DNA of 64,000 bases from contig NZ_CP085193.1 of the NCBI RefSeq assembly GCF_024298965.1, positions 6,138,001 through 6,202,000 of the forward strand, given 5' to 3'. The stretch's first letter is position 1. The number at the start of each line of letters is the position of its first letter. This document shows positions 4,634-44,139 of the stretch, piece by piece. Under the pieces are notes generated by a model, which made no database searches, was not told where the DNA came from, and saw nothing but the letters and a program-made list of their open reading frames with translations. A program made the translations under genes and the position numbers. Source of the stretch: Streptomyces rapamycinicus NRRL 5491. Lineage in GTDB: Bacteria; Actinomycetota; Actinomycetes; Streptomycetales; Streptomycetaceae.

Positions 4634-6109
4634 TCAGCGCCCCTTCGCCCGGCGGCGCCGCCCGCGTCCGCCCCGGCCGGTCCGGGCCGCCTGGGGCGCC
4701 TGGGCTGCCTGGGTCGCCTGGGCGCTGCCCGCGTCGGCCATCCGCTCCGCGCCGCCGTTCGCCGCCGGGGCGCGGTCCGCGGAGACCACGAGCACGGCCA
4801 GCGCGGTGGTCACCGGCACCGAGGCGACGAGTCCGATGCTGCCCACCAGCGTCCGTACGATCTCCTGCGCGACGATCTCGCTCGTGGCGACCGTGCCCAC
4901 CCCGCTGTCCGCGATGGAGAACAGCAGCAGCAGCGGAAGCGAAGCGCCCGCGTACGCCAGCACGAGGGTGTTCACGACGGAGGCGATGTGGTCCCGCCCG
5001 ATCCGCATCGCCGCCCCGTAGAGCTTGCGCCGGGACGTGGTCGGGTCCGCGTCCCTCAGCTCCCACACCGCCGAGGTCTGGGTGACCGTCACATCGTCCA
5101 GCACGCCCAGCGAGCCGATGATCACGCCCGCGAGCAGCAGCCCCTGTATCTCGATGTTCGGATAGAGGCCGTGCACCAGTCCGGTCTGGTCGTCCGTGTT
5201 GCCGGTCAGGCTCGCCCAGCCGATGAACAGCGAGCCCAGCACCCCGATCAGCAGCAGTGACACCAGTGTGCCGAGCACGGCGACCGATGTACGCGCCGTC
5301 AGCCCATGGCACATGTACAGCGCGAGAAGCATGATCGCGCTGCCCCCGACGACCGCGACCACCAGCGGATTGGAACCCTGGAGTATCGCCGGGAGGATGA
5401 ACAGCGTCAGCACCCCGAAGCTGATCGCCAGCGCCACCAGCGCGAACACCCCGCGCAGCCGCCCCACCACCACGACCGCGAGCGCGAACAGCCCCGCCAG
5501 CAGCGCCATCGGCATCGACCGGTCGACATCGGACACGGAGTACTGCAGTTCCTTGGGCGCCTTGGGGGCGTACGCCAGCTTCAGCTCCTGCCCGGCGCTG
5601 AAGTGACGCGAGGCGTTGGGCTGGACGATTTCGGGGAACGTGCGGCCCTTGTCCTTGCCCGAGGTGACCTCGATCGTGGCCTTCTCGCAGACGCTCTTCT
5701 TCCCGCCCTGCCCAGGGCTCCCACCCTGACCCGCGCCGCCGCTCTGCCCGGCGGCGCCGTCCTGGCCGGGCTCGGTGGGCGCCTGCGGCTGGGCGTTCAC
5801 ATCGGCGCAGTTCACCTCCTCGACCTTCACCACCCGTCCGGCCACGGTCGTCTGGTCGAAGCCGAGGCCGCTGCGGCCGTGCGCCTTGTGGTCGGGTGTG
5901 CCGCCCGGCCAGAGCACGATCAGACCGGCCACGACGGCGACGGTGAAGGGGATGAGCACCGCCGCGATGATCTTGCGGAGGCGCGCGGAGACAGGGGTGG
6001 CGGGGCCATGGCCGTGGGAGTGGCCATGGGAATGTCCGTGGCCGTGGCCAGGAGCCTGATCGGAGGGGTGGGGCTGCTCGGGCGGGTGGTCCTGCTGGAT
6101 GGCGGTCAC
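4634..6109 (-). CDS. YibE/F-family multi-pass membrane protein
   Basis: 491 aa. The N-terminal ~35 cytosolic residues contain a histidine-rich run (GHGHGHSHGHSHGHG), then one membrane anchor (about 46-68), an extracytoplasmic domain of ~120 residues, and seven to eight further membrane helices typical of YibE/F (PF07907), with the family's LGVLDDVTVTQ segment. The C-terminus is an Ala/Gln/Arg tail. YibE/F proteins are uncharacterised putative transporters; the His-rich segment suggests divalent-metal binding, but this is inference. Divergent from thiC, convergent with ssgA. Confidence 0.85.
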   Translation of the reverse strand: MTAIQQDHPPEQPHPSDQAPGHGHGHSHGHSHGHGPATPVSARLRKIIAAVLIPFTVAVVAGLIVLWPGGTPDHKAHGRSGLGFDQTTVAGRVVKVEEVNCADVNAQPQAPTEPGQDGAAGQSGGAGQGGSPGQGGKKSVCEKATIEVTSGKDKGRTFPEIVQPNASRHFSAGQELKLAYAPKAPKELQYSVSDVDRSMPMALLAGLFALAVVVVGRLRGVFALVALAISFGVLTLFILPAILQGSNPLVVAVVGGSAIMLLALYMCHGLTARTSVAVLGTLVSLLLIGVLGSLFIGWASLTGNTDDQTGLVHGLYPNIEIQGLLLAGVIIGSLGVLDDVTVTQTSAVWELRDADPTTSRRKLYGAAMRIGRDHIASVVNTLVLAYAGASLPLLLLFSIADSGVGTVATSEIVAQEIVRTLVGSIGLVASVPVTTALAVLVVSADRAPAANGGAERMADAGSAQATQAAQAPQAARTGRGGRGRRRRAKGR

Positions 6110-6150: not shown

Positions 6151-6159
6151 TGTGGATAA
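6151..6159 (-). other. DnaA box (perfect TTATCCACA on the minus strand)
   Basis: The + strand reads TGTGGATAA, an exact DnaA recognition 9-mer. It sits alone between the yibE/F and thiC starts, so it may be a regulatory or titration site or chance. Confidence 0.45.
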
Positions 6160-40371: not shown

Positions 40372-41202
40372 TCAGCCGCTCGTCGCCGCCGACGGGAAGA
40401 GCCGCTCCAGCACCACGGCGATGCCGTCCTCCGTGTTGGACGCGGTGACCTCGTCGGCGACGGCCTTGAGGTCCTGGTGCGCGTTCGCCATCGCGACCGC
40501 GTGCTCGGCCCAGCCGAACATCGGGATGTCATTGGGCATGTCGCCGAAGGCGATCGCGTCCTCCGCGGTCATCCCCAGCCGGCGCGCGGCCATCGAAAGG
40601 CCCGTGGCCTTCGTCAGCCCCAGCGGCAGCAGCTCCACCAGCCCGGTGCCGGCCATCGTCACCCCGACCAGGCCCCCGGCGGCCGTCCGGGCGGCGTCCG
40701 CGAGCGCGTCGTCGCCCAGCTCGGCGTGCTGGATGTAGAGCTTGCTGATGGGCTCCGACCACAGCTCGGCCGGCTCGGTGAACGGCACCAGGGACATCCC
40801 CTCGTGGTCCATCCGGTACCCGTCGCCGAACAGCACCTCGCCGTCCAGTCCGTCGCGGGCCGCGGCCAGGAACAGCGGGCCGATCTCCGCCTCGATCTTC
40901 TCCAGCGCCAGCAGCGCCACCTGGCGGTCCAGCGTGACGGAGGTCAGCAGCCGGTGCTCGCCCGCGTGGTAGAGCTGGGCGCCCTGGCCGCACACCGCGA
41001 GCCCCTCGTAGTCGAGGTCGTCGAGTATGTGCCGGGCCACCGGGACGGTCCGCCCGGTGACCACGATGTGGGCGGCGCCCGCCGCGGTGGCCGCGGCGAG
41101 CGCGTCACGGGTGCGCGCCGAGACGGTGTGGTCGGGGCGCAGCAGCGTCCCGTCGAGATCGGTCGCGACCAGGCGGTACGGAAGGACGTCGCCGCCGCTC
41201 AC
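40372..41202 (-). CDS. HAD superfamily (Cof-type) phosphatase
   Basis: 276 aa, GTG start overlapping the serS stop as GTGA, so it is translated from the serS mRNA. Motifs [25 protein letters not shown] and FGDMPND. Paralogue of 25813-26685 with the same [14 protein letters not shown]-terminus. Substrate unknown; coupling to a tRNA synthetase gene is conserved in Streptomyces as I recall. Confidence 0.92.
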
Positions 41203-42476
41203 CGTGCGACCGGTTCCAGGACCTCGCGTCCGCCGAGGAATGGCCGCAGTGCCTCGGGCACCCGCACCGAGCCGTCGGCCCGCTGGTGGTTCTCGAGGAT
41301 CGCGACGATGGTACGGGTGACCGCGCACAGCGTGCCGTTGAGCGTGGCCAGGGGGCGGACCCGCTTGCCCTCGCGCATCCGGATCGACAGCCGGCGCGAC
41401 TGGAACTCGGTGGTGTTGGAGGTCGAGGTCAGCTCGCGGTACTTGCCCTGAGTCGGGATCCACGCCTCGCAGTCGAACTTCCGCGTCGCCGACGAGCCCA
41501 GGTCACCCGAGGCCAGGTCGACCACCCGGAACGGCAGCTCCAGCGAGGTCAGCCACTGCTTCTCCCACTCCAGCAGCCGCTGGTGCTCGGTCTCGGCCTC
41601 CTCCGGCGTCGTGTAGACGAACATCTCGACCTTGTCGAACTGGTGCACCCGGAAGATCCCCCGGGTGTCCTTGCCGTACGACCCGGCCTCACGGCGGAAG
41701 CAGGAGGAGAACCCGGCGTAGCGCCGCGGCAGCTGGTCCGCCTCCAGGATCTCGTCCATGTGGTACGCGGCCAGCGGCACCTCGGAGGTGCCCACCAGGA
41801 AGAGGTCGTCCTTGTCGAGGTGGTAGACGTCCTCGGCGGCCTGGCCGAGGAAGCCGGTGCCCTCCATGGCCTTCGGCTTGACCAGCGCCGGGGTGAGCAT
41901 CGGGGTGAAGCCCGCCGCGGTGGCCTGTGCCATCGCCGCGTTCACCAGTGCGAACTCCAGCAGGGCGCCGATGCCGGTCAGGTAGTAGAAGCGGGAGCCG
42001 GAGACCTTGGCGCCGCGCTCGGTGTCGATCGCGCCGAGCAGCTCGCCGAGCTCCAGGTGGTCCTTGGGCGCGAAGCCCTCGGCCTCGAAGTCGCGCGGGG
42101 TGCCGACGGTCTCCAGGACGGCGAAGTCGTCCTCGCCGCCGACCGGGACCTCGGAGTGGACCAGATTGCCCAGCTGGAGCAGGAGCCGCTGGGTCTCCTC
42201 GGCGGCCACGTCCTGCTCGGCGTCGGCCGCCTTGACGGCGGCGGAGAGCTCGCCCGCCTTCTTCAGCAGCTCGGCCTTCTCGTCGCCGGAGGCCTTGGGG
42301 ATGAGCTTGCCGAGCGCCTTCTGCTCGGCACGAAGCTCGTCGAAGCGGACACTGGAGGACCTGCGCCGCTCGTCGGCGGTCAGGAGCGCGTCGACGATGC
42401 CGACGTCCTCTCCACGAGCGCGCTGGGAGGCGCGCACACGATCGGGGTCCTCACGGAGCAGGCGAAGGTCAATCAC
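41199..42476 (-). CDS. serS: Seryl-tRNA synthetase
   Basis: 425 aa, GTG start at 42476. N-terminal antiparallel coiled-coil arm (about 1-105) that contacts the tRNA-Ser long arm; class II catalytic domain with motif 2 ([25 protein letters not shown]) and motif 3 ([19 protein letters not shown]). It charges tRNA-Ser and tRNA-Sec with serine. First gene of a two-gene operon with the HAD phosphatase. One cognate tRNA gene lies at 63356. Confidence 0.98.
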
Positions 42477-43075
42477 CCCCCCAGGTTACCGGTGTGACCT
42501 CGGGTGCTCGACGCGATATTCCTTTGCGTCCTATTTTGCCCCCTTTTGGGGCTGTGGGTAAACCGGGGAATTCCTGTGACGGCCACCGTCAAGGAATGCT
42601 TCCGCATTCCCCGAAAAGGGGCAAAGAGGCGGCGCCGAGTCGACCTTCTTCCCTTGCGTGCGGGGTGAGTTGGGGGTTGGTTGTCCACAGGCCTGGGGGG
42701 AATCCCCGAAGTTATCCACAGGCTGTGTGTGAGATCTGTGGATGTCGCAGTGATCGTTGAGGGCGCCCAGATGCTCGGCGATGGATTCCCCTATCAAACC
42801 GCGTTCACACACTCCTCAAGAGAGGAATCCCTCACTCCAAAGAGTTGGTCGAGCGAATTGAGGTGACAAGTGAGTGATGTCCGTCGATGGAGATAAACGC
42901 GAAGAGTGTTGCGATGTGCCCGGTGTGCCGGATTGATGATGTCGACTTATCCCCAGCGCGAGGCGTCTGCCTGTGGATAACTTTTCCGCAGCGATTGTGT
43001 TGACGCGCTCCGGCGTGGGTCCGGGACCGCTCCGGGGCCGCTCAGGCGCGGGTCCGGGTCAGGCGCGGGTCCGGC
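42477..43075. other. Gene-free intergenic region between serS and pheA
   Basis: 600 bp, clearly AT-richer than the rest of the window, with no coding bias in any frame. It contains the serS promoter side, the DnaA-box cluster below, and direct repeats of GCGCGGGTCCGG near 43046-43075 just after the pheA stop. Confidence 0.8.
42553..42980. other. DnaA-box cluster
   Basis: Three perfect TTRTCCACA boxes: TTGTCCACA at 42681-42689 (+), TTATCCACA at 42712-42720 (+), and TGTGGATAA at 42972-42980 (-). Three near matches: TGTGGGTAA 42553-42561, TGTGGATGT 42737-42745, TTATCCCCA 42947-42955. In S. coelicolor, clusters of high-affinity DnaA boxes outside oriC (one called D78) titrate DnaA and limit initiation. 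I believe D78 lies in this gene neighbourhood but cannot verify it. Confidence 0.8.
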
Positions 43076-44011
43076 TCAGGCCCGGCCGTCCTGGCAGCGG
43101 GCCAGCCACTCCGCCGCCTCCGTGAACGCCTCGTCCGACGTCCCGTGCCGCAGCGACGCCATGTCGTCGGCCGTCACACCCGCCCGGGGGTACGAGCCCA
43201 GGAACCGCACCTTCGGGCAGATCCGCTTCAGCCCCATCAGGGCCGAGCCGACCCGCCGGTCGGAGATGTGCCCCTCACAGTCCACCGAGAAGCAGTAGCG
43301 GCCGATGCCCTCGCCGGTCGGGCGTGACTCGATCCGCATCATGTTGACCCCGCGCGCGGAGAACTCCTGGAGCAGCTCCAGCAGCGCGCCCGGGTGGTCG
43401 TCACCGAGCCAGATCACCACGGAGGTCTTGTCCGCGCCCGTCCGGGCGGCGGGCCGGGCCGGGCGTCCGGCCAGCACGAAGCGGGTCATCGCGTTCTGCG
43501 CGTCGTGGATGTCGGTGACCAGCGGGTCGAGACCGTACCTGGACGCCGCGAACTCGCCCGCGAACGCCGCGTCGTACCGCCCCTCCTGCACCAGCCGCGC
43601 GCCGTCCGCGTTCGAGGCGGCCGACTCCCATCGGGCGTCCGGGAGGTTCGCCGCCAGCCAGTTGCGCACCTGGGGCTGGGACACCGGATGCCCGGTCACC
43701 GTCTTGATGTCCGTGATCGCGGTGCCCGGCCGGACCAGCAGCGCGAAGCTGATCGACAGCAGCACCTCGCGGTAGATCATCAGCGGTTCGCCGGTGGCGA
43801 GCTCGTCGAGGGTCGCGGTGACCCCGCCCTCGACCGAGTTCTCGATGGGCACCAGGGCGGCCGCCGCGGCTCCGGAGCGCACCGCGTCGAGGGCCACCGG
43901 CACGGAGACCATCGGCACCAGCTCCCGGGTGGCGGCCTCCGGCATGGACCGCAGCGCGGCCTCGGTGAAGGTGCCCTCGGGCCCGAGGTAGGCATAGCGG
44001 CTGGCCGACAT
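43076..44011 (-). CDS. pheA: Prephenate dehydratase
   Basis: 311 aa from ATG 44011 (GGGAG 8 nt upstream; GTG 44014 adjoining). Catalytic PDT domain with AYLGPEGTFTEAAL, VPIENSVEGGV and the TRF motif (NAMTRFVLAG). C-terminal ACT domain (DDHPGALLELLQEFSARGVNMMRIESRPTG) binds phenylalanine for feedback inhibition. Converts prephenate to phenylpyruvate. No chorismate mutase domain is fused, as usual in actinomycetes. Confidence 0.97.
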   Translation of the reverse strand: MSASRYAYLGPEGTFTEAALRSMPEAATRELVPMVSVPVALDAVRSGAAAAALVPIENSVEGGVTATLDELATGEPLMIYREVLLSISFALLVRPGTAITDIKTVTGHPVSQPQVRNWLAANLPDARWESAASNADGARLVQEGRYDAAFAGEFAASRYGLDPLVTDIHDAQNAMTRFVLAGRPARPAARTGADKTSVVIWLGDDHPGALLELLQEFSARGVNMMRIESRPTGEGIGRYCFSVDCEGHISDRRVGSALMGLKRICPKVRFLGSYPRAGVTADDMASLRHGTSDEAFTEAAEWLARCQDGRA

Positions 44012-44139
44012 CACGGTCGCTCCCTGTGATCAGACGAGACCGCCACGATACCCGCGTCGGCCGGGGCCTCCGCCCCGCATGGTGGACACCCATATGGACA
44101 CCCTTGGACGCGATGCCGCGGGGCGGCTCGTCCCCTTTC

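Follow-up and report, generated by a model that had tools for sequence, protein, structure and literature searches.

The window, as we call the whole 64,000-nucleotide stretch of DNA that was analysed, comes from a chromosome of 12.47 Mb assembled as a single contig, whose nearest named relatives are Streptomyces. Between pheA and serS it carries a cluster of DnaA boxes in a gap of 599 bp (42477-43075), which is free of genes, as the first-pass annotation had it, apart from unsupported open frames. The features of the locus, in window coordinates, are the following.

41199..42476, minus strand: serS, seryl-tRNA synthetase (Pfam PF02403 and PF00587)
42553..42561, minus strand: weak box TTACCCACA near serS, with one mismatch, outside the conserved set
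42681..42689, plus strand: DnaA box D, TTGTCCACA, an exact match, usually about 30 bp from C
42712..42720, plus strand: DnaA box C, TTATCCACA, an exact match, convergent with E
42737..42745, minus strand: half box E, ACATCCACA, with the core TCCACAG invariant in most rows of the alignment
42783..42867, minus strand: conserved centre, made up of blocks conserved in 221 aligned loci, with no perfect or one-mismatch DnaA box
42940..42946, minus strand: GTCGACA element directly after B, in conserved alignment columns
42947..42955, plus strand: DnaA box B, TTATCCCCA, one mismatch, convergent with A, 25 bp start to start
42972..42980, minus strand: DnaA box A, TTATCCACA, an exact match
43076..44014, minus strand: pheA, prephenate dehydratase (Pfam PF00800 and PF01842)

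The three exact TTRTCCACA boxes (A, C and D), the two with one mismatch (B and the box at 42553) and the degenerate third weak box (E) had all been picked out at first reading, and the window's remaining exact boxes are indeed just the two at 6151 and 36314. The AT-richness that had been ascribed to the gap holds only relative to this genome, in which the flanking genes are about 67-75% GC in 200-bp windows, and not in absolute terms, the gap as a whole being 60.6% GC and its part from D to A 55.3%. Within the window by itself, boxes with up to one mismatch were in modest excess, with 12 found against 6.2 expected and as many in one of 100 shuffles. Among 80 named loci, only seven close relatives (L031-L035, L038 and L079) have the weak box of 42553 at the corresponding position, 85 bp before serS, and the GTCGACA element is possibly a weak DnaA site. 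An imperfect tandem repeat with an 11-bp period occupies 43006-43071, between the pheA stop and box A.

Box density along the chromosome

The whole genome has 74 exact boxes whereas the reversed pattern occurs 20 times, and within 100 kb of oriC there are 15 of the exact boxes where 1.2 would be expected. Only two clusters with at least three exact boxes per 500 bp were found, one with four boxes at chromosome positions 6065716-6065914 and the other with the three of the pheA-serS gap; when 74 boxes were placed at random, three fell within 300 bp in 2 of 20000 draws. The whole-chromosome scan therefore revealed a single other place as dense, rather than the many equally dense intergenic regions that the first-pass annotation had named as grounds for giving up its proposal, and there is strong support for a DnaA-box cluster near oriC. 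The sequence for the C-terminal domain of DnaA lies at 6085290-6085490, about 95 kb from the cluster, and the box array of oriC sits in the gap between dnaA and dnaN; the pheA-serS cluster, about 95 kb from that gap, is thus not itself the origin.

The four-box cluster (199 bp; L111 5716-5914) is the densest group of exact boxes in the genome and lies some 20 kb from dnaA, on the opposite side to the window. Its neighbouring genes resemble crgA and a rhomboid gene, and it may be H69 or H24. A three-box pattern derived from it matched 26 of 150 genomes of the genus, with ATCTGTGGATAA seen by eye in 24 of the 26. The sequence AGATCTGTGGAT occurs both at box E (window 42730-42743) and at this other cluster (L111 near 5753-5766); AGATCT is described, in an excerpt of PMC4285127, as an alternative site recognised by DnaA in E. 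coli.

Conserved architecture in Streptomyces

Read from pheA towards serS, the order of elements is A, B, GTCGACA, a second GTCGACAAAT, the conserved centre, E, C and D, with the second GTCGACAAAT being found in most rows and degenerate in the window. Both convergent pairs, A-B and E-C, were present with at most one mismatch per element in all 80 named Streptomyces loci, an unbiased set chosen by PheA similarity alone, and a solitary box D with at most one mismatch was present in 72 of them. The A-B spacing was 25 in 97 of 116 scored loci and 23-24 in the other 19. The E-C spacing, 25 bp counted as 9-mers, was constant in 73 of 73 and in 116 of 116 scored loci, and it is to these two scorings that the constancy refers, the E-C distance having been preset in the scoring of the 80 loci. 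Within the conserved centre CGAA and GGTTTG were 19 apart in 220 of 221 aligned loci.

A strict A-B-C pattern matched 303 of 392 genomes of the genus and its reversed control none. An E-C pattern was tried on 80 of the 89 genomes with no strict match and was present in 77, although this pattern is not specific to the locus, 23 of 30 fetched hits adjoining pheA and serS. In the family a pattern search matched 34 of 150 genomes, from 5 of 17 genera, and none of 15 genomes from the rest of the order gave a match; the pattern is so far a streptomycete trait, shared by Streptomyces and some relatives in the family. Three loci (L212, L221 and L227) have, near position 1504, another complete pair of convergent boxes spaced like E-C; where it shares a contig with the serS locus, the two are several to about 15 kb apart. 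The gene beside it in these three matches the window at 26.8-27.8 kb, and no counterpart of the pair was seen in the window. Overlapping hits of the E-C pattern on both strands were noticed by eye in 28 of the 80 genomes on which that pattern was tried.

The position of the locus is equally regular. In 40 of 40 chosen genomes (37 taken by the A-B-C pattern and three, G031, G118 and G131, by an E-C hit presumed to be the same locus) it was located 76-138 kb from dnaA, with a median of 86 kb, on the 5' side of dnaA and on the same strand. From this position and from its neighbours the locus is probably the orthologue of D78 of S. coelicolor, the cosmid D78 presumably covering SCO3961/3962 (serS, pheA). 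Both are clusters of high-affinity-type DnaA boxes close to the origin of a Streptomyces chromosome. D78 is said, in the 2006 work of Smulczyk-Krawczyszyn et al., to bind DnaA about eightfold better than oriC, and its deletion or its presence in extra copies reportedly alters initiation.

These properties would suit a titration locus, as which the cluster had first been proposed: high-affinity-type boxes would soak up DnaA, the copy number of the locus would set the free DnaA, and the spacing of the boxes would be incidental. The boxes are indeed of that type, conserved and near oriC, and the changes in initiation reported in 2006 are said to be as titration predicts. The proposal thus stands as regards a DnaA-box cluster near oriC, but titration is not favoured as a complete mechanism, because order, orientation, pair spacing, a centre conserved without perfect boxes and, as set out below, the helical phase of the gaps are all conserved, while a sponge needs only box number and affinity. 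Pure titration accounts for the number of boxes and not for the phasing, and as a full explanation it is rather unlikely.

Helical phasing of the gaps

Changes in length between B and E were inferred by parsimony on a tree of pheA and serS. For all 47 changes of 4-45 bp the nearest multiple of 10.5 bp was no more than 2.5 bp away (mean cosine 0.77, V-test p 5e-14), a count in which recombination may inflate the number of events, since they were counted on one tree, and for which the period and the tolerance were fixed after the pattern was seen. Among the named loci and the window 16 of 16 changes were in phase, as against 26 of 43 in their control. The alignment set comprised 231 loci, of which 9 were without pheA and/or serS; with the window this gave 223, and two without a scored E-C left the 221 referred to throughout. 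Some of these loci were found by sequence or by pattern, and about 54 of one batch of 80 were picked for unusual lengths.

Two neighbouring gaps of the same genomes served as controls, and they bear directly on the idea that steps of 10.5 bp are a mutational habit, the duplication of about 10 nt, with no selection on helical phase. From the pheA stop to A 63 of 103 changes were in phase (mean cosine 0.12, V-test p 0.046) and in the efeB-pheA gap 42 of 76 (mean cosine 0.05, p 0.29), so that neither shows the habit, and B to E differed from them with Fisher probabilities of 2e-8 and 2e-9. Inserts were more like their neighbours than chance, at 51% identity versus 36% for random stretches, with 8 of 110 inserts at least 80% alike to the neighbouring sequence, and duplication therefore helps to make the inserts; as the source of the phasing it is very unlikely. 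Nor is the phasing one inherited event, because inserts of 8-13 nt were found at 18 alignment sites.

The same steps were apparent in the lengths themselves. Across the 221 aligned loci the gap from B to GACAAAT was 34-36 (202 loci), 44-47 (8) or 55-56 (11); that from GACAAAT to CAAC 71-75 (146), 82-86 (61), 93-96 (11), 103-105 (2) or 31 (1); that from CAAC to CGAA 27-30 (208) or 38-39 (13); and that from GGTTTG to E 56-61 (196), 66-71 (16), 37 (8) or 25 (1). The modes are about one helical turn apart, and a count of gaps by motif only agreed in the main, with some stray values. An alignment-free count of A-C lengths in 266 genomes among the matches listed, which includes four apparent other loci (G136, G144, G169 and G562), gave 250 (6 genomes), 256-261 (205), 267-272 (46), 274 (1) and 277-279 (8), with none at 251-255 or 262-266 in those 266 genomes when the pattern permitted 249-279. 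Single rows of the alignment showed gaps of 4-6 bp (11 deletion cases) and inserts of 3-5 nt (12 cases), but these were offset by their neighbours and the net segment lengths remained in phase.

A first tree test on the total A-C length in 121 rows was weak, with 23 events of at least 4 bp and a Rayleigh p of 0.02 at 10.5 bp and 0.08 at 10. Conservation along the centre had no 10.5-bp period (p 0.68). The oriC array says little as a positive control: its sole indel of at least 4 bp is a deletion of 10 bp, which 12 of 40 genomes have at the same place and which may go back to one event.

A structured RNA or a small gene between A and C would account for the strong conservation of a gap with no known genes. 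However, an Rfam search over the gap gave 0 matches, consensus folding of 76 diverse rows paired the E-C palindrome only, and the length changes are not multiples of three, and an explanation of this kind is highly improbable.

Beyond box C phasing was weaker, with 63 of 82 changes from C to serS within 2.5 bp (mean cosine 0.43) and, in the sub-gaps, 35 of 49 from D to TTGAC and 60 of 84 from TTGAC to CACGC. Phasing is therefore not confined to the box modules, and control of serS may belong to the function. The region might even be mainly regulatory for serS, with phased DnaA and other factors controlling seryl-tRNA synthetase and so tying charging to replication. The continued, less strict phasing and the promoter-like conserved blocks near serS speak for such a role, but in 73 scored loci serS lay anywhere between 109 and 391 bp from C, whereas A and C were mostly 258-261 apart, and serS is not known to be a DnaA target. 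As the main function of the locus this is quite unlikely.

The phased gaps, the paired modules of 25 bp and the conserved centre may be new. No published report of any of the three was found in the literature searched, in which few subscription papers were covered, and they are described for the present locus as possible differences from D78.

A candidate complex restraining initiation

The reading to which we incline, with moderate confidence and from sequence and analogy, is that the locus is a site of about 300 bp, probably the D78 orthologue, at which a helically phased DnaA complex restrains initiation in the manner of E. coli datA. A DnaA pair would occupy each convergent module, A-B and E-C, in which the box starts are 25 bp apart, with a further DnaA at D, and the roughly 235 bp between the modules would be folded so that they face each other in one closed complex. 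A putative bending or wrapping protein would sit on the conserved centre, probably helping the fold. The locus would be replicated soon after oriC, and the complex would then withhold DnaA from oriC or alter its nucleotide state, and re-initiation would thereby be restrained.

Several findings in other systems bear on such a complex. In excerpts of PMC4285127 S. coelicolor DnaA is stated to bind a single box only weakly, and a change of spacing by one turn at E. coli oriC to be tolerated when a part-turn is not (Woelker and Messer 1993, as cited there). At DARS2, according to the portion of PMC4245941 that concerns it, moving the Fis site by 5 bp was worse than moving it by 10 bp, and a 5-bp shift of the IHF site was worse than 10 bp in one direction, both being harmful in the other. 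N-terminal contacts and a long domain II of S. lividans DnaA have been proposed, in an extract of PMC13270200, to link distant box clusters. Taken with these findings the phasing favours two DnaA pairs face to face across about 235 bp, which a bending partner on the conserved centre probably accompanies. The resemblance to E. coli oriC lies in the tolerance of one-turn changes and the harm of part-turn ones, but the evidence there came from experiment at an origin, and here it comes from naturally occurring variation some 95 kb away from one.

The closest functional parallels are with clusters outside origins. S. coelicolor DnaA-box clusters repress untimely initiation, and are likened to datA, according to passages of PMC4585315, PMC5742627 and PMC10950094, which cite Smulczyk-Krawczyszyn 2006, and DnaA-box clusters outside oriC in B. 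subtilis likewise repress untimely initiation (Okumura 2012, cited in a passage of PMC4585315). Like E. coli datA, the present locus is a small intergenic DnaA-box cluster outside oriC, and the minimal datA region for DDAH, the stimulated hydrolysis of DnaA-ATP, given as 262 bp in an extract of PMC5742627, is close to its A-C length. However, datA has an IHF site among its boxes, whereas no match to the IHF consensus TAANNNNTTGATW with at most two mismatches was found in 42477-43075; common descent is not claimed, and another bending protein is possible. The AdpA consensus was likewise absent from the pheA-serS gap. With DARS1 and DARS2 the locus shares a box cluster, whose activity there depends on where a bending protein is placed with respect to the boxes (PMC4245941), and the DARS core has three boxes in set spacing, with box I opposite to II and III (PMC5742627). 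The difference is that DARS raises initiation, whereas the Streptomyces cluster represses it in the passages of the citing papers.

A more specific version of the preferred reading, doubtful but possible, is that the locus acts as a switch of DnaA activity, in which two DnaA pairs would be clamped in a closed loop by an architectural protein other than IHF on the centre, and DnaA would be changed in its nucleotide state or in its oligomeric form. If this were true the locus would be no titration site but an independently made machine of the datA/DARS type. The test of indel sizes with neighbouring gaps as controls could reveal other higher-order DNA complexes from sequence alone. Streptomycetes carry many chromosomes per hyphal compartment and how re-initiation is limited in them is not settled; the phasing lets the question of sponge or machine be posed with every DnaA box intact.
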